From Muribaculaceae bacterium (GTDB lineage: Bacteria > Bacteroidota > Bacteroidia > Bacteroidales > Muribaculaceae), in NCBI GenBank assembly GCA_029061225.1, contig JAIDSM010000123.1, positions 44,147 to 108,146 of the forward strand: 64,000 bases of DNA, written 5' to 3'. The translations under genes were made by a program, and so were the position numbers. Positions 3,903-63,222 of this stretch are shown in pieces (position 1 is the stretch's first letter; the number at the start of each line of letters is the position of its first letter). The notes beneath the pieces were generated by a model. The model had not been told where the DNA came from. It did not search any database and saw only the letters and a list, made by a program, of their open reading frames with translations.

Positions 3903-4883
3903 ATGAAGATAATACTTCTTTCAGGAGGCTCGGGCAAGAGACTTTTGCCCCTCTACAACGATGTTAGATCGAAACATTTCCTGCAGGTGCTTGATACACC
4001 CGACGGGAGGAAGGAGTCTATGATCCAGCGCGTAGTGCGCCAGATTGAGGCAACCGGAAACGCCGACGGCATCGTCGTGGCTACCGGTGAGGCCCAAGCC
4101 AGCTATGTCAAAGACCAGCTCGGACGCAGCATAGGGATTGTGACCGAACCATGCCGCCGCGACACATTCCCCGCGATAGCCCTCTCCTGCTCCTATCTCG
4201 CATCCGAAGGCACCGACTATGATGAACCTGTAATCGTCATGCCCTGCGACACCTATGCAGACGACTCCTATTTCGAGACTGTCTGCCACATGGCTGAGGC
4301 AGTCAAAAGGGGCGACGCAGAACTGATACTGATGGGTATCACGCCTACTTATCCCTCCGAGAAATTCGGATACATCGTACCTGTGAAAGGAGCGAAGGAT
4401 GACGGCAAGGCAATGCCGGTAGAACGATTTACCGAAAAGCCCAACGTAGCTACAGCGGAAAAGCTTCTTGAGGAGGGTGCCTTATGGAACGGCGGCGTAT
4501 TCGCGTTCCGCCTCGGATACCTGATGAAGATAGTGGAGAAATACATGCCGGGCAAAGACTTCAAACAGATTCATGCAGACTACGAGCAATTCCCGAAGAT
4601 CAGTTTCGACTACGAGGTAGTGGAGAAAGCGAAGTCCGTAGGAGTACTACCCTATGCCGGCGAATGGCGCGACTTGGGAACATGGAACACACTGACCGAG
4701 AAGCTTCCGTCAGAGACAGAAGGAGCGGCACGGCTTCATGACTGCGAGAACACACATGTGGTCAATGAGCTCGGGATACCGGTGCTGGGACTTGGACTGA
4801 AGGATATAGTGGTAGTAGTGTCGCCGGAGGGAATCCTCGTGTCTAAGAAATCGGATTCGGAGAAGCTTAAGAGCTTACTTTAA
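3903..4883 (+). CDS. Sugar nucleotidyltransferase, mannose-1-phosphate guanylyltransferase-like
   Basis: MKIILLSGGSGKRLLPLYNDVRSKHFLQV; FTEKPNVATAEKLLEEGALWNGGVFAFRLG. Confidence 0.82.
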   Translation: MKIILLSGGSGKRLLPLYNDVRSKHFLQVLDTPDGRKESMIQRVVRQIEATGNADGIVVATGEAQASYVKDQLGRSIGIVTEPCRRDTFPAIALSCSYLASEGTDYDEPVIVMPCDTYADDSYFETVCHMAEAVKRGDAELILMGITPTYPSEKFGYIVPVKGAKDDGKAMPVERFTEKPNVATAEKLLEEGALWNGGVFAFRLGYLMKIVEKYMPGKDFKQIHADYEQFPKISFDYEVVEKAKSVGVLPYAGEWRDLGTWNTLTEKLPSETEGAARLHDCENTHVVNELGIPVLGLGLKDIVVVVSPEGILVSKKSDSEKLKSLL

Positions 4884-4941
4884 TTCATAATGCATAATTC
4901 ATAATGCATAATTATAGCCTATGCGATTATCTGGTGATAGG

Positions 4942-18100: not shown

Positions 18101-18326
18101 GATGTGTCAGGCTCCAGCCGGGATTGCCGGGAGGATGCCCTACTTCAAGTCGCAGCGCGGTGAGTAGATATTCAGGACAGTCCCAGTAAGAGGCCCCCGG
18201 ATCGACCGTAAGCCAATAGACCAAAAGAGAACCCAGAAAGGCAAGCCAGGGCACCACCTTGAATGCATAATGCATAATGCATAACGCATAATTAGCCGGA
18301 TTATCCTTATTCGCAGCCATTGACAA
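15141..18326 (-). CDS. DUF2723 family membrane protein (protein O-mannosyltransferase-like fold)
   Basis: YWLTVDPGASYWDCPEYLLTALRLEVGHPPGNPGWSLTHR; multiple TMs and a large C-terminal domain. Exact start uncertain because a dispersed repeat encodes part of the N-terminus. Confidence 0.85.
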   Translation of the reverse strand: MSMAANKDNPANYALCIMHYAFKVVPWLAFLGSLLVYWLTVDPGASYWDCPEYLLTALRLEVGHPPGNPGWSLTHRFVSCFFNDPAIQVQVVNMMAGLFTSLAVMILCSISLSVMRWIWSPGRQRGWRCASISVASLAGSLCFAWSDSAWYSAVEAEVYAMSLFLSALTVWMSLRWAFQFGRGARARWLVALMYVIGLSLGVHQLNLLVLPAIAMVMALSIRERKKSGFFRVVFAFLIGCSVVALILKGLMPGSLALAGWADLIAVNSFGLPYWSGAIMFWGVSLAIVVAASFVAGKRHRNLSTAFWCTAAVMLGFSVYILIPLRAWANPPVNEGNPSDVFRMADYLDRRQYGKSPLFYGQTPYSRVMRQEHVSVGEDGDTVYDYSWNALDVKGRDMRPMVRGGHIPARSIFLTEDDRKLNERISSKDSAIGYVVAGIRSEARMTPELNMWLPRIYASSPGDLAAYRDWTGMDSASMVRVRVSEAFDSLGHPVPMRDADGKPIVKYGLRPTYLHSLAYMAVYQIGYMYFRYLMWNYSGRQNDVPSTGEIDHGNFITGVPTFDDLMLGSQSSLPPELGKENDGRNVYWCIPFLLGMVGIVWLFRGSRKGLLSLRMRRTAWVSLVLFFMTGIAIVFYLNQSPGEPRERDYSFMGSFWTFALWIAFGMLLLLHSVRRRWARGVAVALVCAVPFWMLAQNWRDHDRSCRSATLDYASNLLESLDEDAILFVEGDNYIFPLWFAQEVMGLRRDVTVICNPYLGCDWYVCQLMTPRYGYDGLKMTGTEGDIALGNFNMVRFPASETDTVEAIEALRALYADRSATPSFRSRWLRMGKDSTDSWVFDILSIPGKPAGSLAGLREVAAIDIVATNAVSRYPRPVYWHQDLSNAKSIGFYPHTRQALFTRRLMPQLLDSAVLLDEALGALPKLKWGGLDMAPYPGPDVSSQAARQRASLIRLAESLGADGRHDQALHVAKSAWVRYPSGLIPFSIRYHADSAYFEARQIAMVLRRSGQAVGDSMALSLADEIEKEDSLRTVAFRRYRQALPAWRRSALSPDSRNHTIMTP

Positions 18327-18354: not shown

Positions 18355-19158
18355 TTATTTCACTATGCCCTTGTCGAGAAGGCGGCGTTTCACCTGCATG
18401 CGGAGCCAAGTGGGGGTTATCCCGATGAAGAAAATCGCAAGGCGGTTGATGAAGCCGTTGATGTACTGTTTCTTTCCCTTGAGCATAGCTTTTACCGCCT
18501 TCTCTGCGAATCGGTCGGGCTTCTCAACGGCTCCGACCGCTACAGCGAGACGCATTAGATTGTCGGGCAGACCAAACAGGGAAGTAGCTATACCGCCGGG
18601 GGCAGCCACAGTAGCCGATGCTCCGTAATCCTTAAGCTCATAATGGAGAGAGCGGGTGAAGACGCGTATGTATGCTTTTGTGGACGCATACATAGCAAGT
18701 CCGGGCATCGGCATCCAGCATGACATCGACGACATGTTAAGGATCCGGCCACTACCGCGAGCCTTAAACCTGCGGGCGAAGAAGAGCGACAGCATCGTGG
18801 TGGCACGCACATGAAGGTCGATGAAACAGTTTATTTTAGCTTCCGGGGTCTCTGCAAGTTCACGGAAACTGAAAATACCGGCATTGTTGATCACGAAATC
18901 CGGCTCAATCCCTCTGGTGGAAAGGAATGCCCCAAGCATCGACACGGATGAGGAATCAGTGAGATCAAGCGTGAAGGGAATGGCCTTGACCCCATATTCC
19001 TTCTCTATGGAGGCAGCGGCCTGGCGCAACGGATCTACAGTCACGCTCACCATCAACAACGAACAGCACCGCCTTGCAAGGGCTCGACAGAACTCAATGC
19101 CGATACCTCCGTCAGCACCCGTGACGACAGCCCACTTTCCTTCTAATTCATAATTCAT
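18355..19158 (-). CDS. Short-chain dehydrogenase/reductase, hydroxysteroid dehydrogenase candidate
   Basis: VVTGADGGIG cofactor motif, NNAG, YASTKAY active site. Confidence 0.88.
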   Translation of the reverse strand: MNYELEGKWAVVTGADGGIGIEFCRALARRCCSLLMVSVTVDPLRQAAASIEKEYGVKAIPFTLDLTDSSSVSMLGAFLSTRGIEPDFVINNAGIFSFRELAETPEAKINCFIDLHVRATTMLSLFFARRFKARGSGRILNMSSMSCWMPMPGLAMYASTKAYIRVFTRSLHYELKDYGASATVAAPGGIATSLFGLPDNLMRLAVAVGAVEKPDRFAEKAVKAMLKGKKQYINGFINRLAIFFIGITPTWLRMQVKRRLLDKGIVK

Positions 19159-19262
19159 AATTCATAATGCATAATGCATAATTGGCAAGTCATAATCAGC
19201 TATTGCTAAACCTTAGCTTTAAAGCATTATGAAAAATCATGCATTAGATTAACTCCAATTGA

Positions 19263-48687: not shown

Positions 48688-48994
48688 CTTTCATCCACAC
48701 CCCTCCAAGTCACCACATTAGTCACCACACCCACAATAATTCACTGAATTACTGCGTGTTATGCGTGTTGTGGGATACACATATCTATAGTGTTGATATT
48801 GTAATATGCTGATTATCAGTATTAAATACACCATCATTCATCATCATTCACAGCCATTCACCACACTTATCTTCTCCAAGAATGGCAAACTTTAACAGAT
48901 TTTAACTATAATCGCCATGTAAAAATGTGGTGACTTCAGTCAAAATTGCTACTAGGTCACCACGCAAGATAGTTAAAAACTCAAAATTTTTTCG

Positions 48995-49190
48995 TATCTT
49001 TGCACTCGGATTGGTGTATGCCATTCCACGACATATTGAAATAAGGAAGCGTTATGCTCATCTTGTAGTTTGAGAACCTGAGAAATTCATAAAACAGAGC
49101 AAGAGATAGCATAGTGGTTCTCACGCGTATAGCGTGAGCTGCTATTGTTACATCTGCTCACAGGTTTTCTCAGGACCTTCAAATAAAAGT
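48995..49190 (+). ncRNA. Candidate structured rod-like non-coding RNA
   Basis: TATCTTTG -7-like box at 48995-49002. Five nested stems: 49069-49073/49179-49183, 49077-49085/49166-49174 (CCTGAGAAA/TTTCTCAGG), 49097-49101/49155-49159, 49106-49111/49140-49145, 49120-49126/49132-49138 (CTCACGC/GCGTGAG). Confidence 0.65.
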
Positions 49191-49637
49191 ATAGGGAAAA
49201 TATAGTTTGTGGATTTTGGCGGTGTATATAAGTGATTATATGGCAGTTATATGGGCTGATTTGGAGATTTTAGAGCGTTTTTCAAATTAGGGGTAATTTG
49301 AATGATTTTAGAGGGCGTTCAATGGCGATTAATGCCTAATGAAATGCTATTAGGTTGTAATAGACGTTGAACGGCATTAGGGAGTGTTGTTGAATGATGA
49401 CACCTCCATAAAAGACTATATCGTTGAACAGCGTTAGGGGCATTAGAGAGGTCAATATCGGTTAGTGGTGTTTAATGATGGTTCCCATATTACCCTCATA
49501 CTGTCATCAATGCCTATAATCCACCTCCAAATTAGGCTAATCTCTTTACAAATTACGCTAATTCATTGTAGTATATTAGATTATGGCAATCATTGGTGCT
49601 TATAGGTGGTCTTATAGGATGGCAACGGCTTTTCTTT

Positions 49638-50160
49638 TATATATAAATTCTAATGGGGATTGCCTCTACTAATACCTATCGTCCTTTTAATTTACCATAA
49701 ATCATTGATAATGTTTAGCGTATCGCATTTAATGATGCGAATAGGTCTATCCCTATGGATTGAAGAGGCAATAATACTATATATAAAGATTAGCAGCAAC
49801 TCTCCCTATTGCAATCTATTTCCATTATAAATAACTATAATCGCCACTATATTACCGCCTTATCGGTATTAATGATTGGATTAGGTCAATCCAATGGAAT
49901 TGCCATCGTTTTATTTCTATATATAAAGATTGAATCCAATTGCCCTTTCAAATACCTATTTTTAACATCAATAACCATAACCGCCACTATATTACTGCCT
50001 TATTGCATTTAATGAGTGTATTAGGTCTTATAAAGGGAATGAAACCTCCTTTTCTCTTATATATAAATACTGATGGCATCTCCTCCGCTCATTACCTACT
50101 AATCGACTTTTTTACTTACTTATCACTATATTACATATATAGCCTATAAATTCCGCTCAT
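49638..50160 (+). repeat. Left array of diverged 140-bp repeats
   Basis: TATATATAAA at 49638, 49778, 49918 and 50058 (spacing 140, 140, 140); shared blocks such as ATAACCATAACCGCCACTATATTACTGCCTTATT and ATTAGGTC. Confidence 0.85.
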
Positions 50161-50566
50161 TAGCCTACATAAGTGTTAAAATAGTGTTAAAATCCAAACG
50201 CCATCTAAATATCGCTCCTATTCCTATATATTGGAGTGTTACCTTTCAATGACGATTGGAGGTAACGATAAGAGAACATTGAAATAGTGGAACGGATTTT
50301 TAGGGTGATCTATTCAACAGCCATCCCCTTTTTCCTATTCATCTATATATAAGGAGGTGTATTGATGAAGTGGAGGGAGGGAAAGGGAGGGAAAGGGAGA
50401 GATAGACCCTTAAATCAGTCTAAATAAGGAGAAGTGTTAAAATTGTGTTAAAAATAGGATAACCACTAAAGATTGGAGGGTCTTTTAGTATATATCTTAT
50501 TTAGGTCTGAAATAAAGTAGGTTGCGAATTTGGAATGTTCGGATTTTTTTATTACATTTTGGCGTT

Positions 50567-50602
50567 TTTGTTTGGAGAGGTGGAGAATTTTGTGTAATTT
50601 TG
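50567..50602 (+). promoter_or_regulatory. Bacteroidetes-type promoter driving the element's small-protein operon
   Basis: TTTG at 50571-50574 and TAATTTTG at 50595-50602, 20-nt spacer. Confidence 0.55.
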
Positions 50603-50926
50603 CATTATGGATAACCACCTAAAACAGTAAACGAACGAAACAGACATAAAAAATAACGACATACAACAAAACGACTTTAGACAAGTTATTTGGCGTGGAT
50701 AAATCTGGAAAATTTTGAACGCAGTCCAAATGATAAGTCGAAAGTGGGATTGTACCCCTCACAGGGCGCAACCTACTTTTTCCTTATTGTGACTGCAAAG
50801 GCAATTTCCAGAGCCTATCCACCCAATGAGAGAAAAGTTAAAGGATGTGACCCTTTTTCTTTTCTACCCTATTGGGGATTTGTCATAAGTCTGAACCAAT
50901 ACGTTAACCCTTAAAAACAAAAGACT

Positions 50927-51133
50927 ATGGCAATTTTTCAAGTTACATCTAAAATGTCTCTCGGCGGTTCTAACGGAATACCCAAAGGCACAACAGTTCA
51001 GGTAATAACTCCTAATGGAGTAAACAGTGTGGATGCCAATAAAATTCAAGCGGCTATTAAACAGCAGCTTGGCAAAGACCTCCAAACCTCTGTATGTGTC
51101 GCTGCCCACTTTGAGGTAGTAAGACTGAAATAA
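50927..51133 (+). CDS. Small hypothetical protein (68 aa)
   Basis: MAIFQVTSKMSLGGSNGIPKGTTVQVITPNGVNS...; first gene of a tightly spaced operon. Confidence 0.7.
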   Translation: MAIFQVTSKMSLGGSNGIPKGTTVQVITPNGVNSVDANKIQAAIKQQLGKDLQTSVCVAAHFEVVRLK

Positions 51134-51450
51134 TGGCTTATATCTATAAGGTTCAAAATGGCGCAGTCTGCACCCTTGATAAATACGGAGGACAGGTAAG
51201 AGCACCCTTTCATCCTGCAATGGGTGGTAACGCCATCTTTGTGGACTATAATTCCAACTTAGAAAGATTGATGGTGACTACTGACAGAGGTGCTATCATT
51301 TTTTACAATAATTATGGCGGTGCTATATCCCATTTTACTGTAAAGGATGTAGCTATGGCTCGATGGCAAGGTGATGACATACTTGTTCAGCTCAAAAGCG
51401 GTAAATGCACCCTCTTCAATAAGTATGGAGGTATGATCAAACATTTATAA
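51133..51450 (+). CDS. Small protein with repeated YGG motifs (105 aa)
   Basis: LDKYGGQVRA, FYNNYGGAISH, LFNKYGGMIKH; start overlaps the previous gene by one nucleotide. Confidence 0.7.
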   Translation: MAYIYKVQNGAVCTLDKYGGQVRAPFHPAMGGNAIFVDYNSNLERLMVTTDRGAIIFYNNYGGAISHFTVKDVAMARWQGDDILVQLKSGKCTLFNKYGGMIKHL

Positions 51451-51462
51451 ATAGATTGCGCT

Positions 51463-51861
51463 ATGGCAAAGAAATCTGAAATCATAGGCGAATTTATAGT
51501 AACGATAGACGACAACAATTCAGTGTCGGTAAGCCGTATCTATAAAAGCACCAAAGAGGCACTTAGAAAAATATGGGAGGACAGCGGAAAAGGCGTTGCT
51601 CCCGAAAAATGGACTACCCAGGATTTAGGGCGTCATATACTCAATGAGCTGTGCGATGGTGCTAAGGAGGCTACATTAGGAGATTACACCATTGAAAGAG
51701 AGGCTAACAACCGTATCAACGTACTCCGTACTTATAAGGTGGCAAAAGAGGGTCTGAGAGATTGTGCAGAAAGCATCGGTTTTCCCTACGAAAAGGAATG
51801 GGACACACAAAATTTCGGTCGTAGGCTTGTTATTTATGCTCAAACTTTAAATACCAAATAA
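51463..51861 (+). CDS. Two-repeat hypothetical protein (132 aa)
   Basis: Internal duplication: IGEFIVTIDDNNSVSVSRIYKSTKEALRKIW...WTTQDLGRHIL versus LGDYTIEREANNRINVLRTYKVAKEGLRDCA...WDTQNFGRRLV. Confidence 0.75.
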   Translation: MAKKSEIIGEFIVTIDDNNSVSVSRIYKSTKEALRKIWEDSGKGVAPEKWTTQDLGRHILNELCDGAKEATLGDYTIEREANNRINVLRTYKVAKEGLRDCAESIGFPYEKEWDTQNFGRRLVIYAQTLNTK

Positions 51862-51863
51862 TT

Positions 51864-52364
51864 ATGGGCGTATTAAACTCCACCGGCTATTTCAACGGCG
51901 ATAAGGACAAATGGATTGAGAAACGACACCTAATGCTGGAGTTTTTCAAAGGGAAAGTATTGTCCGTTCTGATAGTTGACCCTAACAATGAAATGCCGTT
52001 GGAGGAGATTGAGAAAGCCTTACCCGATTTATTTCTGAAATCCTTTGATTTAGCCGATTGTAAAGATGGCGATTTCAACCGAATAGGTCAGCATTTAGGG
52101 AAATATATCAATGATGGAAAGTGCGCTTATGATGGACTGCTGTTTGATAACGTCGATTGCATCAATGCAGGTAAAGACACCGAAGATTTACAGACGATGG
52201 TGTGGCAATCACTGAAAAGAGATGACTCTGAAACGTGTGGTTATCAGATACTACCATTTGGCGATGCTATCCCATTCGATAAAATGATGATAGCCGCAAG
52301 GTGTAAGGAAATTCCCGACTATCTAAAGGATAAATCACTGCAAAGGTATATTATCGAAGTATAA
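51864..52364 (+). CDS. Hypothetical protein (166 aa)
   Basis: ORF in the same operon, 2-nt gap from the previous gene. Confidence 0.65.
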   Translation: MGVLNSTGYFNGDKDKWIEKRHLMLEFFKGKVLSVLIVDPNNEMPLEEIEKALPDLFLKSFDLADCKDGDFNRIGQHLGKYINDGKCAYDGLLFDNVDCINAGKDTEDLQTMVWQSLKRDDSETCGYQILPFGDAIPFDKMMIAARCKEIPDYLKDKSLQRYIIEV

Positions 52365-52424
52365 GGCAATTATACTTCTACTTCGATGAAACCATTATAT
52401 GAAACCATTTTAATAACGCTATAT

Positions 52425-53360
52425 ATGGCAAAATTCAAAATCACCCCAACAACAACCGTTGCCGAACTCAAAGAGCAGTTCCGCAATGAAATCGGCGGTG
52501 TTCTGCGTGTCTATGAGGGACGTAGCCAAGCACCAGCCGATGCGACCTTGGTGTCGCTCGGAGCAAAGGAGGGCGAATTGGAATGCCGAACCAGCCGAAC
52601 AGTCGGCAAGTTCGAGGAGGCATTTCAGAAAGACCTCAATCTCAAAGTGAAAGTCTATACCAAAGACGAAAACGTATCTGTACTTGATGGCATTACCCTT
52701 GCGACAGTAAAGGAAATCCCCAATATGTCCACTCACGCAAAGATGGAAAAGTACCTTGCTTATCAGAAGGAGGGAAAAGAGGAAGAAAACGCTGAGGTAG
52801 TGAACGAAGAAACAACTGAAAGCGAAGATGTTGAATTATTCAAAGGGGTGATACCCAAATTGGTATTTAGCCCTAATGAGAAGCGCTATGCTGTAGAACA
52901 TGGAGAGGGTATAGTTTTAATGGCGAGAGAACTTAAAGATTTCTCAAATTTGGACATCCTTGTAGATGAATATGCACGTGAGGAGGAGCCAATGGTTTTG
53001 ATAGCCATTAATAAAAATAACTCGGAAGACTGTGCGGCTGTTGACATTTACTGTGTAGGTGTAGAATATGTTGAGAGGGAACTTAAGAAACATGGTATAA
53101 CTTCATACGATGATTATAAGTTCTACTATACGTATGTGGATCCATATGATGAAACAGAGGAGGAATTTATAGAGAACACTTACCATTGTATGTACCTAAA
53201 TAAAGACCGAGCAGGTCTTTATGAAGACCAAGAATTTGATAGGAAAGAACTTATTAAGACTATCAATAAGGAATATAGGCACTGTTCGGATGCACATTTG
53301 GATATATTCAATGGAAAAAAATGCATCTACTCATGTGATGGTGTAGTTGTTAGTGATTAA
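52425..53360 (+). CDS. Protein with ubiquitin-like/beta-grasp-like N-terminal segment plus unknown C-terminal domain
   Basis: MAKFKITPTTTVAELKEQFRNEIGGVLRVYEGRSQAPADATLVSLGAKEGELECRTSRTVG; start moved to 52425. Confidence 0.65.
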   Translation: MAKFKITPTTTVAELKEQFRNEIGGVLRVYEGRSQAPADATLVSLGAKEGELECRTSRTVGKFEEAFQKDLNLKVKVYTKDENVSVLDGITLATVKEIPNMSTHAKMEKYLAYQKEGKEEENAEVVNEETTESEDVELFKGVIPKLVFSPNEKRYAVEHGEGIVLMARELKDFSNLDILVDEYAREEEPMVLIAINKNNSEDCAAVDIYCVGVEYVERELKKHGITSYDDYKFYYTYVDPYDETEEEFIENTYHCMYLNKDRAGLYEDQEFDRKELIKTINKEYRHCSDAHLDIFNGKKCIYSCDGVVVSD

Positions 53361-53459
53361 AAAACATCTGAAAATTACCGAGTGTCCCAATCCCATTTTT
53401 CAGTGGGATTGGGATATTTGTGCCATAATGACTATATTTGCATTTATATAAAAATTGAT

Positions 53460-54065
53460 ATGAGTGCATTTAAGTATAGAAGTCTAACAGACTTAAAAAG
53501 AGTTCTTGATATAATTGTAAACAAGCGATTGTATGGAGCAAAATACCTTTCATTGAATGACCCAATGGAAGGTCAATTTCAATTTAACCTCAACGAAGAT
53601 TTTACTCAAGAAAATCTTCAAAAATTATTTGACGCAAGAGCAAAAGCCCGTATTTGCTCTTTATCAAGGAAGTTAGATGATAATGAAATTCCTAATAATG
53701 GTATTCTTTGGTCAATGTACGCTGATGAACACAGAGGGTGTTGTATCGAAGTTATTGCGGATGATTCTAATTGGCACAAAGAAGATGTATACTATTCCAA
53801 ATTTCCACCGATTGTAAATAATACCAGTGTAAAACTTAGTGATATACTATCCATTAAGTTTAACCAATGGGACTACGAAAAAGAAGTTAGGTACATTAAC
53901 ACTGACCCGAAAACGCCTTATATGAAAGTTAAGATAAAGGCGGTCTATTTGGGATGCAGAGTTGATAAGGAAGATGTAGAGTTTTACACTTCGCTAATAA
54001 AATCAATTGACAAAAAAATCACTGTCCGTCAGATAAAACGAGACGAACTCAATTGGATACGATAA
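53460..54065 (+). CDS. DUF2971 family protein
   Basis: MSAFKYRSLTDLKRVLDIIVNKRLYGAKYLSLNDPMEGQF; ARICSLSRK; GILWSMYADEHRGCCIEV. Confidence 0.82.
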   Translation: MSAFKYRSLTDLKRVLDIIVNKRLYGAKYLSLNDPMEGQFQFNLNEDFTQENLQKLFDARAKARICSLSRKLDDNEIPNNGILWSMYADEHRGCCIEVIADDSNWHKEDVYYSKFPPIVNNTSVKLSDILSIKFNQWDYEKEVRYINTDPKTPYMKVKIKAVYLGCRVDKEDVEFYTSLIKSIDKKITVRQIKRDELNWIR

Positions 54066-54071
54066 GATTTT

Positions 54072-54106
54072 GAGAACACCGCCACAAAACGGTGTTCTCT
54101 TTTTTT
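54072..54106 (+). terminator. Rho-independent terminator
   Basis: GAGAACACCG-CCACAAAA-CGGTGTTCTC-TTTTTTT. Confidence 0.9.
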
Positions 54107-54109
54107 CGT

Positions 54110-54913
54110 TTAGAAAATCTTATCTCTATATAAGGGCAACAACTCCATTCCCTTATGATATGCCCATTCCACTAATTCTTCTTCTGAAATATTAGGATTG
54201 TTTTTCTTATATTCTTCAAGTTCTTTTATAGCCTCACTGTAAGCTCTTCTTGTTCCATATGAATATTTAAGAAAGTATTGTAAAGCATAATGATCCATTG
54301 GTTCAAATCCACGTCCCGTGTTAGGGTTCATCCTGATAATAAGAGTATCTGTTGAAAACATTGGGCAACATCTATATGGTATCTCGAAATCATCATCTTC
54401 ATCATTTCCATACATAGTATATCTCTTTCCATCATTAAAATACTTCAATCTTTTTCTATCATCCCAAGATTGACGATACATCCCCTCCCAAGTAGATGCA
54501 ATGTCCTCTGCCGTTTTCTTAATCGTTTCGTACTTGAATTTTTCTCTTTCATTCCAATTCTGATTAGACACTGCCTTTGCAGCTTTCTCTTTCTCAATAT
54601 ATTTCTCTGATAGTATTTTGTATTGTTCTTCCTTTTGCTCAATTGCTCTTTCTTTATCAGCGATAATCGCTTTAAGTTCCTCATTCTTTTTCTCTGTCTC
54701 CACCACTTGGTCGGAGTACTCGGATATAAGGTTTATGGCACTATGAGGTAGAGTATTAAGTGCCTTTGCCTTTTCTCTTTCCAATCGTCCAACGGCATAA
54801 TTCAACCGTTTTCGGTCTTTTTTGACTTGGGAGAGTTCAGCCTCTTTTTCAGCGAGTTTTGCCTCTAATCTCTCAATCTTCCTTTGGTCTTTGGTTTTGT
54901 ATTTTCTGTCCAT
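54110..54913 (-). CDS. Coiled-coil hypothetical protein
   Basis: Long heptad-rich N-terminus (RKIERLEAKLAEKEAELSQVKKDRKRLN...), no recognised catalytic motif. Confidence 0.65.
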   Translation of the reverse strand: MDRKYKTKDQRKIERLEAKLAEKEAELSQVKKDRKRLNYAVGRLEREKAKALNTLPHSAINLISEYSDQVVETEKKNEELKAIIADKERAIEQKEEQYKILSEKYIEKEKAAKAVSNQNWNEREKFKYETIKKTAEDIASTWEGMYRQSWDDRKRLKYFNDGKRYTMYGNDEDDDFEIPYRCCPMFSTDTLIIRMNPNTGRGFEPMDHYALQYFLKYSYGTRRAYSEAIKELEEYKKNNPNISEEELVEWAYHKGMELLPLYRDKIF

Positions 54914-54986
54914 ATTTGAATTATCTTTATCTGACTAAACATAACGAAAGGAGGGTCGAAGTTTAGTCTGAAAGGGTTAATAAATG

Positions 54987-55502
54987 TTATCGGTTAGACA
55001 TAATCTGCATTGCCTCAAATACCATTGCAATATCTACTCCGTTGCATAGATCCAACTTATCGTCCGTAAGGGCGTAATGAGTATAAGGATAGACCTTTTC
55101 ATAAAGATGGGCGTTCTTTATGCTCCTTTCATCACCTCCAAAAAGACAGATGGTGTTTTCTTCATCATATTCATCTATCTCATTAGACTCATCGAAACTA
55201 TCAGTATAGACCGATGGAGAAATTAGATATTTTCGTTTGAAGTTTTTGATTGGCTCAATGTAGTTAGCACCGTCTCTATAGCCTATCAATATCGGCAATC
55301 TGACCTCTTTCCATATCTGCTCAAAGTTATAGAAACAACGGCATTTTGGATAGTCGATGATATGAACATCAAACTTATCGGAATTGAACCACTTATTTAC
55401 CACTTCCATAAGTTTATTTTCATCATAGTAGCCGTTAGGAGCGGTCTTATCTATGGGCTTAAAGTGATGTTTGCCTGTGAAGATTATTACAGTCTGTTTC
55501 AT
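54987..55502 (-). CDS. Hypothetical, alpha/beta-hydrolase-like topology with degenerate nucleophile elbow
   Basis: TVIIFTGKHH ... LPILIGYRDGANYIEPIKNFKRKYLISPSV. Confidence 0.55.
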   Translation of the reverse strand: MKQTVIIFTGKHHFKPIDKTAPNGYYDENKLMEVVNKWFNSDKFDVHIIDYPKCRCFYNFEQIWKEVRLPILIGYRDGANYIEPIKNFKRKYLISPSVYTDSFDESNEIDEYDEENTICLFGGDERSIKNAHLYEKVYPYTHYALTDDKLDLCNGVDIAMVFEAMQIMSNR

Positions 55503-55565
55503 TGCTTTTTCTTTTTAGGGTGATGGAGAAGGGGCATTTGCCCCATTCTCCGATACTGTTACTTA

Positions 55566-56153
55566 TTAGAGTTTGTATTTTGCTGATGAATAGTCCTTTT
55601 TCCATTCGCTTTTCCAATTACATCCTATCATTCCGTTGAAGTCGTTGGGAAGAAAGATTTTATCGTATTTGGTTTCACCTAATATCGCATTCAGTTCGGC
55701 TTTCAGGTTGGTACTGTCTTTCAGTGCCTTAATCAGTCCTCTAATGAGCGTTGTTTGTTGTTTCATACGGATTTTGAGATAATCGGGTGCATCACTGCCG
55801 ATTTTGAAATTTACGTTTTGAGTGAGCATTTTGTCGATGTCCTCCACCTCCTTATATGAGGGAATGACCTCCGTAAGATAGCGTTTGATTGAGTGGCGCA
55901 TAAGTTCGTCCATACGGAACTTATAGCCGTTGATGTAGAAGTGCTGTTCGGTGGTGTAGTCCTTATTGGTGAAGATGGTAATTACATTCATCATCTTAAT
56001 ATTGGGTGAACCATAGTTGACACCGTTTTCAACTATCATTTCAACCACTTCCTCTACGTCATTGGCAGTGGTTTTAGGTGCAACGTTCTTAACTGTTGCG
56101 TTCTTTGCGTTGTTGGTGTTGTTGCGTTTGGCTGATTTAGTTTTCTTATCCAT
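55566..56153 (-). CDS. Hypothetical protein (195 aa)
   Basis: Basic N-terminus and helical core; divergent from 56373. Confidence 0.6.
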   Translation of the reverse strand: MDKKTKSAKRNNTNNAKNATVKNVAPKTTANDVEEVVEMIVENGVNYGSPNIKMMNVITIFTNKDYTTEQHFYINGYKFRMDELMRHSIKRYLTEVIPSYKEVEDIDKMLTQNVNFKIGSDAPDYLKIRMKQQTTLIRGLIKALKDSTNLKAELNAILGETKYDKIFLPNDFNGMIGCNWKSEWKKDYSSAKYKL

Positions 56154-56372
56154 TGTTCTTTGTATTAATTGTTAATATTCTGTTTTAGTGTGGGTTATTG
56201 CCGTTGGTGGCTCTTTTTCCCTTTCGCACATATATATACTAAATGAGGGTCGAAAATTTAGTTCCAATCATCATTTTAACACTTATTTAACATTTGAAGA
56301 AATATGGGGTAAATCATTTGGCTATCAGAGGATTTTTTATTAACTTTACATTCTCTAAAGCGCACAACATCA

Positions 56373-56855
56373 ATGGATAAGAAAGCAACCGACATAATAT
56401 TCTTTCTCCCTTATTGGGATAAGAAAAATCCTACATTGGAAGACCAAACTGGCTTTATGCTCTCTGAAATGTTTGAGGAAGATGAATGTTTGAAGATTGG
56501 CGATAAGGTCTATTCAAGCAATGATTACTATATGAAAGACCCAAAGGAATTTATAAGGGAGGCAATAAGAAAAGACCGTCCCAAATGGGTAATCGGCATA
56601 GAGAACACCGCCACTATCCTTATTTCATACAAACGGCAAATGAAAATACTCATAAATCCGACTGTCACCCTCAACGACCTAAATTGGGTTACACCAGAAA
56701 CGATAAGGGATACATACGCCTTTTTCAGTGCCGATTATGAAAAGGATTATGAGATATATTCTAAGGTGTATCGTAATGTCGCTTTCTTCCCTACTCAGAA
56801 AACGCTGTTTATAGGCGATTTAAGTGCGGCTATAAGGGGGATAGTATCTGAGTGA
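56373..56855 (+). CDS. Hypothetical, alpha/beta-hydrolase-like topology with degenerate nucleophile elbow
   Basis: DIIFFLPYWDKKNP ... PKWVIGIENTATILISYKRQMKILINPTV. Confidence 0.55.
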   Translation: MDKKATDIIFFLPYWDKKNPTLEDQTGFMLSEMFEEDECLKIGDKVYSSNDYYMKDPKEFIREAIRKDRPKWVIGIENTATILISYKRQMKILINPTVTLNDLNWVTPETIRDTYAFFSADYEKDYEIYSKVYRNVAFFPTQKTLFIGDLSAAIRGIVSE

Positions 56856-56908
56856 CATATATTATTGGTTTGAGAGGCGTAATTGCCTTATACGTCATAT
56901 ATACCGTT

Positions 56909-56951
56909 AGAACCCTCCAATCCTTTGCAGTGCTGTTGATTGGAGGGTTCT
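56909..56951. terminator. 14-bp perfect inverted repeat between convergent genes, probable bidirectional transcription barrier
   Basis: AGAACCCTCCAATC / GATTGGAGGGTTCT with 15-nt loop. Confidence 0.65.
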
Positions 56952-56960
56952 ATATAGCGA

Positions 56961-57596
56961 TTATAGTGCTGTATCCCTTATTTTCCGTATGGTGTTTATG
57001 GAAGTGCCGGTGATGGCTGATATATTCTTTAGGGATAAGCCTTTGCGGAGTAGTGATATTTCCTTTGGGTACTGCTCTTTGTAGGTTTCAACGCTCTTTC
57101 TATAAGTGGAGGGGCGACCCATTTTTATACCCTCTTTTCGGCAACGGTCTATATACTGGTTTCTTCCGCTCTCCATCCTCTCCCTTATGGTTAACCGTTC
57201 CATAGACGCTATCTCTAAAAGGATAGTGCAGATAAGGGAGGTAATCGGATTGGGTTTGCCGTTTTCGTCCAACGTCTCCAAATTATAGTTCTTCACATAT
57301 AGGCTGACACCATTTTCAGTGAGGAACTGAATTACCTTTAGAGCCTCCAACGTATTGCGTCCAACTCTGCTAATCTCCAAACATACGACCCTCTTTATCT
57401 GATGTGCCTTAACGTATTCCACCAACGACACAATTTCCTCCCTTTCCTCAATGCGTTTCGCTCCGCTTACCTTATTGGCGAAGATTTCCTCCACCGTCCA
57501 TTGACGGCTGTAGCAATAGGCTGACAGTTCGTTTATCTGCCTTTGGTATTCCTGGCGGTCGGTGCTGACCCGTGCTAATATAACTACCTTATCCAT
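56961..57596 (-). CDS. Small serine recombinase (resolvase/invertase family)
   Basis: MDKVVILARVSTDRQEYQRQINELSAYC; ISRVGRNTLEAL; C-terminal HTH GLSLKNISAITGTSINTIRKI. Confidence 0.93.
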   Translation of the reverse strand: MDKVVILARVSTDRQEYQRQINELSAYCYSRQWTVEEIFANKVSGAKRIEEREEIVSLVEYVKAHQIKRVVCLEISRVGRNTLEALKVIQFLTENGVSLYVKNYNLETLDENGKPNPITSLICTILLEIASMERLTIRERMESGRNQYIDRCRKEGIKMGRPSTYRKSVETYKEQYPKEISLLRKGLSLKNISAITGTSINTIRKIRDTAL

Positions 57597-57740
57597 ATCG
57601 TTTTGCGTTTTTGTCTGATACGGATATATATAACAAAGAAACCCTATTAATTTAATATAAAACATTAAACTAATAGGATTTTCAGTGTCTTTTTTACCGC
57701 TTTTCAATATTAAATTAATACGGTTGCGGTTTTAATACGG

Positions 57741-59219
57741 TTAGGAGGTCTGTTTCTCCTTTAGGCGGTATTCATCAACTTTCCTAACACCAACCTCCTT
57801 TGACTGTTTGTTACTGTTCGCCTCATATACGGTGACGGTATTGTTTAAGTGGTTGAATACACTTATCTGTGCAATATATTTGGATAGGCGGATTACCGAT
57901 ACTTTCTTAACCACTTTTCTAATGATGGCTATCTTATCGTCAATCGTCATTGTGTCTTCGTTTAAACCACCTAAAAAGTCGGCTTCCACCATTTGCTGTT
58001 GCTTATATGCCGTTTCATTGGTCAGTTCCAACAACCGCCGTTCCTTATCGGATAGTTGTTCCTTTTGTTGTTCCATCAGTTCCTCTCCTCTTTCTGTAGA
58101 TAGGTTGCCGAAAATCATTCTCTCCTCAACCTTATCAATCCTATCCTTTATGGTTTTTATTTCCGTCCTAATGGTATCGGCCTTTTTACAGATGATGGCT
58201 AACTCCTTTTGAATTTGACGTTTCATAATCGTTGGGTTCATAAGGTGTTTACGGTACATCTCTTTTGCATACTCCCATACTATCGGATCAATGACTTTCC
58301 GTTTTATCATCAGTCCTCCATAATGGGAAATATAGTAACTGTCCTGTGATGCCCAACCACATAGGGAACGACCGCTGTTTCCATCATAAACCAACCCCTT
58401 TAGTAAGAGAAGATTTTTTGATTTCTTCTTAGGTGCTTTCCTTCTTTTCTTTCGCATCGACTGCACCTTATCATAAAGCGATGGAGATATGATTGGGGGA
58501 TAAGGCGGTTTCCCTACATAGAAACTTCTCTCCAACCAATCACTCATCTTCTTTTGGAGGGTGAAGAATGATGTTTTGGGAAACAATCCCTCCTCCTTAA
58601 ATTCCTTTGCTATATCGGCTATCGATACATCACCTTTGGAATACCTCAAATAGAAACGTTCCACTATTTTGGAGGCGATTGGGTCAACGATATAATACTT
58701 TTCCTTATTTACGGAGTAGCCGAAAGGAGGGAAACCTCCCCCTATTTTACCGATGGAGACATTGTGTCTTCTTCCCCTCATCATCCTTTCCTTTTTTACC
58801 GCCATTTCGGTTTCTGAAAAGGAAGAAAAGATTGAGAACATAAGGGAGGCGGTCTGTGACATTTCCCCCTTATCATCCAATAGGCGCATAAAGGGTTGTA
58901 GGCAGATAAGTTGGATTTTGCGTTCAATAAGGAAATCCCTTATGCTGAACAGCACCAACTGACGACGGCTTAAACGGCTTAATTCGTAAAGGTAAACCGC
59001 ATTGATGGAGGGGTCGTTGTTGATGTGCTCTTTCATTCGGTTAAGTCCGTTCCTTTCCTCTTCACTCAACTTTATAGCCGACTCCTTATCTTCAATAATG
59101 ATGATGTTGTCATCGGTGTAGCCGTCCTTTTTTACCTCTTTTAAGACGGCTTCCGTTTGTTGTTCCAACGTCTGATGATTGGAGCTAACCCTACTTAAAA
59201 TGATTGCCTTATTTATCAT
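57741..59219 (-). CDS. Large serine recombinase
   Basis: AIILSRVSSNHQTLEQQ; YELSRLSRRQLVLF; SIFSSFSETEMAVKKERMMRGR; Recombinase domain and coiled-coil C-terminus (492 aa). Confidence 0.92.
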   Translation of the reverse strand: MINKAIILSRVSSNHQTLEQQTEAVLKEVKKDGYTDDNIIIIEDKESAIKLSEEERNGLNRMKEHINNDPSINAVYLYELSRLSRRQLVLFSIRDFLIERKIQLICLQPFMRLLDDKGEMSQTASLMFSIFSSFSETEMAVKKERMMRGRRHNVSIGKIGGGFPPFGYSVNKEKYYIVDPIASKIVERFYLRYSKGDVSIADIAKEFKEEGLFPKTSFFTLQKKMSDWLERSFYVGKPPYPPIISPSLYDKVQSMRKKRRKAPKKKSKNLLLLKGLVYDGNSGRSLCGWASQDSYYISHYGGLMIKRKVIDPIVWEYAKEMYRKHLMNPTIMKRQIQKELAIICKKADTIRTEIKTIKDRIDKVEERMIFGNLSTERGEELMEQQKEQLSDKERRLLELTNETAYKQQQMVEADFLGGLNEDTMTIDDKIAIIRKVVKKVSVIRLSKYIAQISVFNHLNNTVTVYEANSNKQSKEVGVRKVDEYRLKEKQTS

Positions 59220-59499
59220 ATAACCGATTTTTTCGTTCCACTATATATCCCAAAAAGAGGTCAAAAATTTAGTCCTATACCCAATTATTTTCCATCATTT
59301 TTCAAAAAAATCCATAATCCCTTAATGGAGGTGATTTTGGAGGTTATAGGAGGTATGGGGTAACGGATGAAAGAAAAATGAGGGATAGTATTAGGTAGCA
59401 ATGGAGGTGAAAAAGCCACTGATATATTCCTTTCAAAATTTCAATGTGCTCTTTTCCATTACCCTTTAATCGTCATTAAAAGGTAACACTCCAATATAT

Positions 59500-60100
59500 A
59501 GGAAATGGTGAGGTGTTTAGTAGAGAATACCGTTTTAACACTTCTTAATATCAGAAGTGGCTGATGGGTGGTAGATATGGATTATACAGGTGATATAGTG
59601 GTGGTTATGAGAATTAAAAGTGATAGTAGGTAAAGATTGGAGTAATCGCCATTAATCTTTATATATAGAAACAAAAGGGATGTAATGCTGATGGATTGAC
59701 CTATTCCAATCAATAAATGAGATAATAAGGGAATATAGTGGAAGTTATAGTATTTTATGGTAAAATTAGGTTACAGTAGGACGATTTTCCACTAATCTTT
59801 ATATATAGAAATAAAGCCTCTCCAATCCGATGTTATAGACCTAATCGCATTATTAATGCTTATATCTATAACATTACCAGTAATTTATAGCACTTTATGA
59901 GTGAATTAGGTATGTTTGGGAGTAACATCCATCAATATTTATATATAAAAGAAAAAGGAGGCGATAACCTACCATTGAACCTAATGTCAATATTCTTTGG
60001 GGTAAAGAAGTAATATATTGGTGGTTATAGCGTTCTATAATGAAAGTAGGTATTGACAAAGGTAGTCGCCATTAGATTTTTATATATAAAGTAATTCTAT
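59500..60100 (-). repeat. Right array of the same repeat family in inverted orientation
   Basis: TTTATATATA at 59658, 59798, 59938, 60079 (spacing 140, 140, 141); the reverse complement matches the left-array blocks. Confidence 0.85.
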
Positions 60101-60338
60101 GGAAATACAACGGTTGCCACCTACCTATCTTTTTATCTTCACTAACCTCTTACAACATACGATATTATGCAATACAACGACATAACAGCCAATAAATTAA
60201 CTATATAGCGGTAGATTTCTTTGCCGATTTGACAAACTATAGTTTTCATATAGTCTTATAAACTAGAACGTGGCATAGTTGGCTCACGTTTTCTTAATTA
60301 TAATTATATCTTTAGAGTCAGAAGATAGAACCAATAAT

Positions 60339-61125: not shown

Positions 61126-63222
61126 ATGAAATTAAGCAACCTACCGGAACTTATATCCCAATGGGATATAGATAGAAATGTTGCCTCCTATCTAACCCTT
61201 AGTATCGGATCTCATTATGTTGCATGGTGGCATTGTGACATCTGTGGCTACTCATATGATCGAGAAGTTCAGAATCAAGTAAAAATATATAGACAGAGAG
61301 GTCTCAAAAATATTTGTCCTATTTGTCGTGGCAAGAGAATTGTACCAGAATATAACAGTCTTAAAGCTCGCCATCCAGATATTGTAAAAGCGGAATGGGA
61401 CTATGAAAAGAATAGTGTAGCACCGGATAGAATTGCACCTCATACCAATAAAAAGGGTTGGTGGATATGTCCTAATGGACATTCTTATCCAAGTTCGCCC
61501 AACAACAAACTTAATGGAGGGGGCGATTGCCCTTTCTGTAGTCACCAAAAGGTCTCACCCGAGACTTCACTGTTAGCGACCTATCCAGAGATTGCAAAAG
61601 AATGGCATCCCATTCTGAATAATTGTGGGCCTGAAGATATCCTTCCCCAAAGCAACGTAGAAGTATGGTGGAAATGTTCTGTCTGTGGAAACGAATTTAA
61701 GAAAAAAGTTTATCAACGGATTCAATCTCCATTTGGATGTAGAGAGTGCAACAAAGGTAGACAGACCTCTATTTCAGAACAGCTTGTATATAATTTCTTG
61801 ACACAATATTTCCCTGATGCAATTAACATATATAAGATTGATAGAAGAACTGATATAGATATATTCTTGCCCTCAACAAATGTAGGTATTGAATATGATG
61901 GTGCAAGATATCACAAGTGTAAATTAGATAAAGATATTGCAAAAACAAAAAGGATTATATCTCATGGTATCAATCTAATTAGAATAAGAGAAAAGGGATG
62001 TCCCAAATTATCTGTAGATGGATGTGTTTGCATTGAAACTGATGATACACCGGTTTCTTTAGAATTTAAGTTACCCATCCTTCTTAATACTATTGGTAAA
62101 CTTGTTAATAAACAATTCGTATTAAAGAATTTTGATTTCCAGACCATTTTTCGTGAGTTAAAGGCTGAATTCTCGACAGTTCCTTATGATAAAAGTTTAG
62201 AAGCGTATATTGAAAAACTCAAGTTTGAAGGTAAGTCTTTAGTCGCTTTATGGGATAAGGATAAGAATGGCGTTCTAACACCGCGACACGTTACCCCAAA
62301 ATCCGCTATTGAAGTGAACTGGCTATGTCCTAATGACACTTCACATAAGGGGTGGCTTGCACCTATTCATTCAGTCGTAAATGGTTATGGATGTAAAATA
62401 TGTTCTAAACGTCAAAGATATACTACCGAAGATTGGATAATAGAGGCGAGAAAAATACATGGGGATAAGTATGATTATTCCCAATCACAATATGTCGATG
62501 CTTCAACTCCAATCGATATAATTTGTTCAGTACATGGAATTTTTTCACCACCTGCGGGTCAACATCTGGCGGGAAGAGGATGTCCTTATTGTGCTGGACA
62601 AGCATTTCACCCAAAGGATGCTGTTACCGAAGTTTATCCTGAATTAGCCAAGGAATGGGACTATGAGAAGAATTTTTCTGAGTTCAATGTCACCCCTGAT
62701 AAAGTTAGCTTTCATGATACCCGCGAATTTTTTTGGCACTGTAACTTTGGCAAATCGCATAGCTATAAAGCGACTTTGTGGAGTAGAATTAAAAAAAATT
62801 CAAAATGTGCAGTTTGTCATGGTAAGCAAATATCGCATGACACCAGTTTAGCATATTTAGATCCCAAGCTTGCCTCTGAATGGTGCATAGAGAATGATAA
62901 AACTCCTGAAGAAGTTACCCCTAAGTCAGATTACCTAGCTCTTTGGAAGTGCCCAAACCCCAATCATCCACCCTATAAACAAAAGGTGGAAGTAAGATCT
63001 AGAGGAACTGGGTGTGTTTATTGTTCAAGGCGTGGTAAAAAACACCCAAAAGATTATGAAGACGAACTAAGAGCAACTCATCCACAGATAAAGTTATTAA
63101 AACCATACGTTAGAACTCAAGAACGGGTTACATGCAAGTGTGAAGTATGTGGACATATTTGGTCTCCATATCCATACAACCTTTTAAAGAGTAAAGGATG
63201 CCCAAAATGCTCCAATGAGTAA
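61126..63222 (+). CDS. Multi-zinc-ribbon protein with embedded Vsr/PD-(D/E)XK-like nuclease segment
   Basis: About eight CxxC/CxxH-type ribbons (e.g. WWHCDICGYSYD...CPICRGK, WWKCSVCGNEFK...CRECNKG) and DIDIFLPSTNVGIEYDGARYH; DUF723-like IHGDKYDYSQSQYVDASTPIDIICSVHG. Confidence 0.82.
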   Translation: MKLSNLPELISQWDIDRNVASYLTLSIGSHYVAWWHCDICGYSYDREVQNQVKIYRQRGLKNICPICRGKRIVPEYNSLKARHPDIVKAEWDYEKNSVAPDRIAPHTNKKGWWICPNGHSYPSSPNNKLNGGGDCPFCSHQKVSPETSLLATYPEIAKEWHPILNNCGPEDILPQSNVEVWWKCSVCGNEFKKKVYQRIQSPFGCRECNKGRQTSISEQLVYNFLTQYFPDAINIYKIDRRTDIDIFLPSTNVGIEYDGARYHKCKLDKDIAKTKRIISHGINLIRIREKGCPKLSVDGCVCIETDDTPVSLEFKLPILLNTIGKLVNKQFVLKNFDFQTIFRELKAEFSTVPYDKSLEAYIEKLKFEGKSLVALWDKDKNGVLTPRHVTPKSAIEVNWLCPNDTSHKGWLAPIHSVVNGYGCKICSKRQRYTTEDWIIEARKIHGDKYDYSQSQYVDASTPIDIICSVHGIFSPPAGQHLAGRGCPYCAGQAFHPKDAVTEVYPELAKEWDYEKNFSEFNVTPDKVSFHDTREFFWHCNFGKSHSYKATLWSRIKKNSKCAVCHGKQISHDTSLAYLDPKLASEWCIENDKTPEEVTPKSDYLALWKCPNPNHPPYKQKVEVRSRGTGCVYCSRRGKKHPKDYEDELRATHPQIKLLKPYVRTQERVTCKCEVCGHIWSPYPYNLLKSKGCPKCSNE

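Follow-up and report, generated by a model that had tools for sequence, protein, structure and literature searches.

Why do tandem DNA units that differ strongly in their letters keep their spacing almost to the base? The question arises in a 64-kb stretch of Muribaculaceae DNA (the window), where TATATATAAA recurs on the forward strand at 49638, 49778, 49918 and 50058, with spacings of 140, 140 and 140 bp. An earlier note, made from the letters alone, had read this phasing as selection on spacing.

The recurrence at exact 140-bp steps in diverged units, only 32–65% alike, is confirmed for this left array. The same motif is mirrored on the reverse strand at 60088, 59947, 59807 and 59667, with spacings of 141, 140 and 140 bp, the first being longer by the single additional base of unit R1. 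With both strands counted, the window holds 11 matches where 0.22 would be expected, and none of 100 shuffles gives as many. The phase thus holds to the base in the left array, as the note had it, but not in R1 or in homologous arrays, where spacings run from 137 to 142 bp. The eight units that the note had counted do exist, but as two inverted sets of four with about 9.4 kb between the sets, not as one run. What escaped the note is the mobile element, of which the array forms one of two inverted ends.

In-register identity among the units is 32–72% (mean 50%), as compared with 29% (maximum 45%) out of register, and unit 4 of either arm has partial homology only to the other units. The note was right that the array is not protein-coding, since no consistent ORF crosses the units, and that it is not CRISPR-like, as the units diverge along their whole length and there are no short identical repeats with unique spacers. 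The small inverted repeat that it pointed out in L2, ATTGGATT-AGGTC-AATCCAAT, is real, and recurs in good form in R3 only. What looked to the eye like complementary arms in L1, L3, R1 and R2 was dropped, as the registers appear to differ.

The element was delimited by comparison with relatives and with empty sites. In two other genomes, the left-end homology of relatives starts exactly at 49183. When the left and right flanks are joined, they align over their full length with target copies that carry no insertion, at a minimum of 10 loci of the genus. The empty site reads CCTTC-AA-ACTAG; the uninterrupted copy in L066 reads CCTTCAAACTAGAACG, and the window has CCTTCAA, the element and then AAACTAGAACG. 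The uninterrupted target copies and the precise junctions therefore define an 11,077-bp insertion with AA at both junctions (Table 1). The G+C content is 37.7% inside the element and 50.4% outside. The two arms are inverted repeats of each other and flank the recombinase genes, and the left terminal sequence ATAAAAGTATAGGGAAAATATAGTTTGT is also found in the elements of G378, G196 and Bacteroides faecichinchillae. Most simply, the junction AA would be the 2-bp core of a serine integrase. Elsewhere, the junctions are AA/AA in B. faecichinchillae and TA in G378, both read without an empty-site comparison.

Table 1. Features of the mobile element and its arrays (positions in the window)
Feature	Position	Strand	Remarks
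Whole mobile element	49183-60259		11,077 bp; AA flanks both junctions
AA, left junction	49181-49182		presumed recombination core; empty-site comparison
Left terminal inverted repeat ATAAAAGTATAGGGAAAATATAGTTTGT	49183-49210	+	82% complementary to 60232-60259
Degenerate part-unit outside L1	49528-49636	+	profile match, positions 30-139, 17.8 bits
L1	49638-49777	+	140 bp, left array unit; motif and profile matches
L2	49778-49917	+	140 bp, left array unit; hairpin at 49875-49895 inside
L3	49918-50057	+	140 bp, left array unit
L4	50058-50197	+	left array unit; divergent second half, terminates in GTGTTAAAAT repeats
Inner edge of left arm, conserved	50205-50262	+	84% complementary to 59463-59520
Left operon	50927-54065	+	68, 105, 132, 166 and 324 aa proteins without known family, plus DUF2971 protein
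Other cargo	54110-56855		267-aa coiled-coil (-), 171 aa (-) and 160 aa (+) proteins
195-aa protein, Lys/Asn-rich tail	55566-56153	-	no family; candidate array binder
Small serine recombinase, resolvase/invertase type	56961-57707	-	248 aa; Pfam Resolvase 4.6e-26
Large serine recombinase, presumed integrase	57741-59219	-	492 aa; Pfam Resolvase 7.6e-19, Recombinase PF07508 1.1e-5
Inner edge of right arm, conserved	59463-59520	-	counterpart of 50205-50262
R4	59528-59667	-	right array unit, divergent in part
R3	59668-59807	-	140 bp, right array unit
R2	59808-59947	-	140 bp, right array unit
R1	59948-60088	-	141 bp, one extra base, right array unit
Right terminal inverted repeat ATAAGACTATATGAAAACTATAGTTTGT	60232-60259	-	pairs with 49183-49210
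AA, right junction	60260-60261		empty-site comparison

The target belongs to a dispersed repeat of the genus, about 200 nt long, which occupies 48981-49182 in the window and resumes at 60260-60300; intact copies are L065-L074 and L076. It folds as a long hairpin (L066:240-490, −82.9 kcal/mol, z −5.9), matches nothing in Rfam and, by eye, has a possible gene start downstream of several copies. It is possibly an unnamed RNA or leader family. The G378 element (L045 and L046 flanks) also lies inside a palindrome, TTTGACTCGTC...GACGAGTCAAA, a second case hinting that the element may prefer hairpin-like targets.

The element fits the large-serine-recombinase integrative class, with a recombinase gene inside, precise insertion at a short core and presumed integrase activity. 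The large recombinase has relatives of 62–75% identity in three other elements. No solved relative was found for it at the thresholds used with a three-row profile, an unexpected outcome for a serine recombinase that is probably due to that profile. The small recombinase is better conserved than the large one, with 81–90% identity in the G132 and G378 elements. The 195-aa protein is 61–77% identical in two other elements, matches no family or solved relative at the thresholds used, and gave an unusable structure model (pLDDT 47). The left-operon genes have syntenic counterparts in B. faecichinchillae. No recognisable structural, replication or mobilisation genes of the kind that mark a phage, prophage or plasmid were found in the element.

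With 199 bits, the DUF2971 protein (53382-54065) matches PDC-S31, a candidate defence family of PADLOC, so the element may carry defence cargo. Just outside the element, the product of 61126-63222 has seven DUF4379 zinc-finger repeats along with a sub-threshold match to the MTES_1575 nuclease. Intergenic 7-bp repeats, TAATTCA/AATGCAT, recur in the window at 1400-1456, 4881-4913, 18262-18292 and 19144-19183.

Relatives are few. A search with the unit profile over 397 genomes of the family detects arrays in four besides the host, one of them weakly, and a close recombinase is present in 2 of 297 family genomes, host included, and in 1 of 394 genomes of the order, the host itself. When genome contigs were scanned with the large recombinase, three loci were found, in a Bacteroidales MAG, a MAG labelled Porphyromonadaceae and B. 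faecichinchillae JCM 17102. The last, a member of another family, carries a complete element in which gene content and gene order are the same and each end bears an array. Its large recombinase (L052:9953-11487) is split in two frames with a stop, and this copy is probably inactive. Arrays or element relatives occur in five further genomes besides B. faecichinchillae. Phage collections, plasmid collections and IMG/VR yielded no relative of the element; a scan of IMG/VR with the terminal-repeat pattern gave 23 matches, probably by chance.

Beneath the 140-bp period lies a shorter one. Over 560 bp, the G+C power at 10.0 bp is 23.3 in the left arm and 24.4 in the right, while it is at most 13.1 elsewhere in the 64 kb, and the ten strongest 400-bp segments all fall inside the two arrays. 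Single 140-bp segments of the arrays already reach a power of 8–12, so this phasing is more than a harmonic of the repeat. Averaged over 28 units, the profile has its peak at 10.10 bp and a power of 17.9, against a maximum of 10.6 in 5000 permutations. Each of five elements peaks at 10.0–10.2 bp; phase agreement between elements is partly due to common descent. At lags of 10–80, agreement in S/W class is above expectation and agreement of letters inside a class is not. The phasing is therefore compositional rather than a worn 10-bp repeat, and a decayed 10-bp minisatellite is ruled out by the absence of letter identity at lag 10. Substitutions that conserve the S/W class make up 37% in the arrays versus 32% (p = 0.087), so selection on AT/GC class is only suggestive from substitution counts.

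A weak dyad axis lies at unit position 73 (z 4.4), at the centre of the unit, and TATATATA marks a weaker one. At 10.5 bp, static curvature calculated from a table of roll values is ordinary (67th–78th percentile). By its sequence, a unit of 14 × 10 bp with a weak dyad would be suited to wrapping. The phasing is the pattern of DNA wrapped with its AT-rich grooves inward, and we infer that wrapping is its purpose. The earlier note had offered regular protein binding or a nucleoprotein wrap; the 10.0-bp phasing supports the wrap, the binder being conjectural.

We therefore put forward, at roughly even confidence, that the arrays are subterminal nucleoprotein regions that help the serine recombinase system to pair or control the ends, where the binder and the function are what we infer. 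The 11-kb integrative element would insert via its serine recombinase or recombinases, with the array as its left subterminal part and the inverted array at the other end. The 10.0-bp phasing would put AT-rich minor grooves on one face at each helical turn, and either arm could then wind around a protein core or filament that recognises shape, not sequence. This protein could be a host nucleoid protein such as HU, or one encoded by the element. Naming the 195-aa protein, which is conserved in those elements in which it could be looked for, would be a guess. The wrapped arms might help to join the two ends for the serine recombinases, or keep the ends in a regulated state. Since 140 is 14 × 10.0, gain or loss of whole units would preserve the helical phase, which would explain how spacing is kept while letters change. 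Known large serine integrases need short att sites only; a synapsis that used about 560 bp of array at either end would be out of the ordinary.

Helical periods below 10.5 suit left-handed wraps, for example those of nucleosomes (~10.2), and periods above 10.5 suit the right-handed wrap of gyrase. It is conceivable, though doubtful, that both ends are nucleosome-like wrapping DNA, in which units of 14 × 10.0 bp would be wound left-handed on a non-histone protein into a toroidal synaptic or silencing complex. As to a histone, the host genome (86% complete) gives no PF00808 match.

The arrays could instead be strong DNA gyrase sites like the SGS of phage Mu, with gyrase wrapping each unit of about 140 bp and supercoiling the element, which we consider unlikely. 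The unit length, the dyad and the periodic G+C do resemble the E. coli gyrase motif from Topo-Seq, which is 130 bp long and symmetric with phased G+C at a 10.75-bp period (PMC6379681). The setting in a mobile element is also shared, and the Mu SGS aids the pairing of Mu ends (PMC10052514). However, the power here is 1.7 at 10.75 bp versus 17.3 at 10.0 bp, and either half alone also favours 9.75–10.05 bp. Moreover, the Mu SGS is one central site that works best in the centre and not at the ends (PMC10052514), whereas here arrays occupy both ends. A gyrase site of the E. coli type was rejected on the G+C period of the arms, 9.75–10.1 and not 10.75 bp, the motif being from E. coli while the gyrase of Bacteroidales may differ.

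Just as unlikely by itself is upstream regulation, in which a repressor or activator bound to the arrays would control the recombinase and the left operon. Both arms do lie upstream of inward-facing operons, their inner edges are conserved, and promoter-like TTTG..TAnnTTTG matches, counted with one mismatch allowed and without a shuffle control, are found nearby. Regulation alone leaves the 10-bp phasing unexplained, but it could hold together with the wrapped arms proposed above.

Relative to its genes, the B. faecichinchillae element has its two outer end types swapped, and the switch point falls within the arrays. This shows that, in the family's history, the arms recombined at least once or an exchange of ends took place. 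The arms might thus be an inversion substrate, the interior being flipped between them by the small serine recombinase or by homologous recombination. Of the two recombinases the small one is better conserved, and among curated NCBIfam families it matches the Mpi invertase best, although far below the cut-off. Nonetheless, there is only one swap, seen between elements that are distant; units 50% alike would serve homologous recombination poorly, no crossover site was identified, and inversion explains neither period. We find this reading improbable.

The spacing itself bears on whether the arrays need any function at all. The earlier note had named variable periods in homologous arrays of other genomes as evidence against selection on spacing. 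Instead, 23 intervals from six genomes (seven if G039 is counted separately on its weak scores) run from 137 to 142 bp, with a mean of 140.26 and an SD of 1.26. The net length change of 140-bp blocks averages 0.70 bp in the arrays versus 6.30 bp in the other non-coding DNA of the element, with a p-value of 1e-5 that is optimistic as the blocks overlap. On the other hand, when indel events are counted per substitution, the arrays show no deficit relative to that other non-coding DNA (p = 0.38). Copying of whole units, which the note had also suggested, is borne out: the left arm of G378 has one unit more than that of the window, and in G284 a pair of adjacent units is identical across the last ~80 bp. 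The right arm of G378 has lost part of one unit by deletion. Thus, the steadier net block length speaks for selection on spacing, but the undepleted indel events and the whole-unit copying do not allow it to be the sole cause; in-register copying and length constraint seem to act together.

The same copying and undepleted indel events would fit arrays that are neutral leftovers, duplicated as whole units by unequal crossing over and then drifting, with in-register copying keeping the spacing constant. This also appears improbable to us: the spacing is maintained over two bacterial families and among units about 50% alike, the net block length varies far less than it does in non-coding DNA elsewhere in the element, and duplication does not yield 10.0-bp phasing. 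Structured RNA or single-strand attC-like hairpins in each unit are highly implausible, for in spite of an ACCTA/TAGGT pair across the centre of all units and a perfect 8-bp hairpin in L2, the covariance check with RNAalifold gives five consensus pairs at −0.75 kcal/mol, none with a compensatory change, the fold z-scores are inconsistent (−2.9 to +1.15), and Rfam has no match.

How does the element compare with known systems? SCC/Ccr and Tn4451/TnpX are integrative elements mobilised by large serine recombinases. The present element shares with them the Resolvase and Recombinase domains, precise insertion, a 2-bp core and att-like inverted ends, and differs in its inverted subterminal arrays of 140-bp units, the 10.0-bp phasing and the second, small recombinase. 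Assignment as an SCC element (CcrA/B) was rejected, the recombinase matching CcrB at 42 bits against a curated cut-off of 900. Foldback-type Galileo and Tetris of Drosophila have long terminal inverted repeats of internal tandem repeats in common with it, but they are eukaryotic, with P-superfamily/DDE enzymes and no serine recombinase, and the abstracts on them report no phasing. The ends of Tn7, Mu and IS607 likewise have multiple protein sites near them that assemble a synaptic complex; those sites are short specific motifs, whereas the units here are long and shape-like. IS607 itself has a serine transposase and no terminal inverted repeats (PMC6188088).

The mobility and anatomy of the element are well supported. 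No description of such arrays was found in the open-access literature searched, and the element apparently represents a rare and so far undescribed family, in which serine recombinases go with subterminal arrays that are inverted and helically phased. It adds a new integrase, of presumed activity, with a mapped target site. The arrays provide a natural case for how bacteria select DNA shape over sequence, and hundreds of bases of phased DNA kept at both ends across two Bacteroidales families suggest a layer of DNA architecture in serine recombination that, within the literature searched, is undescribed.
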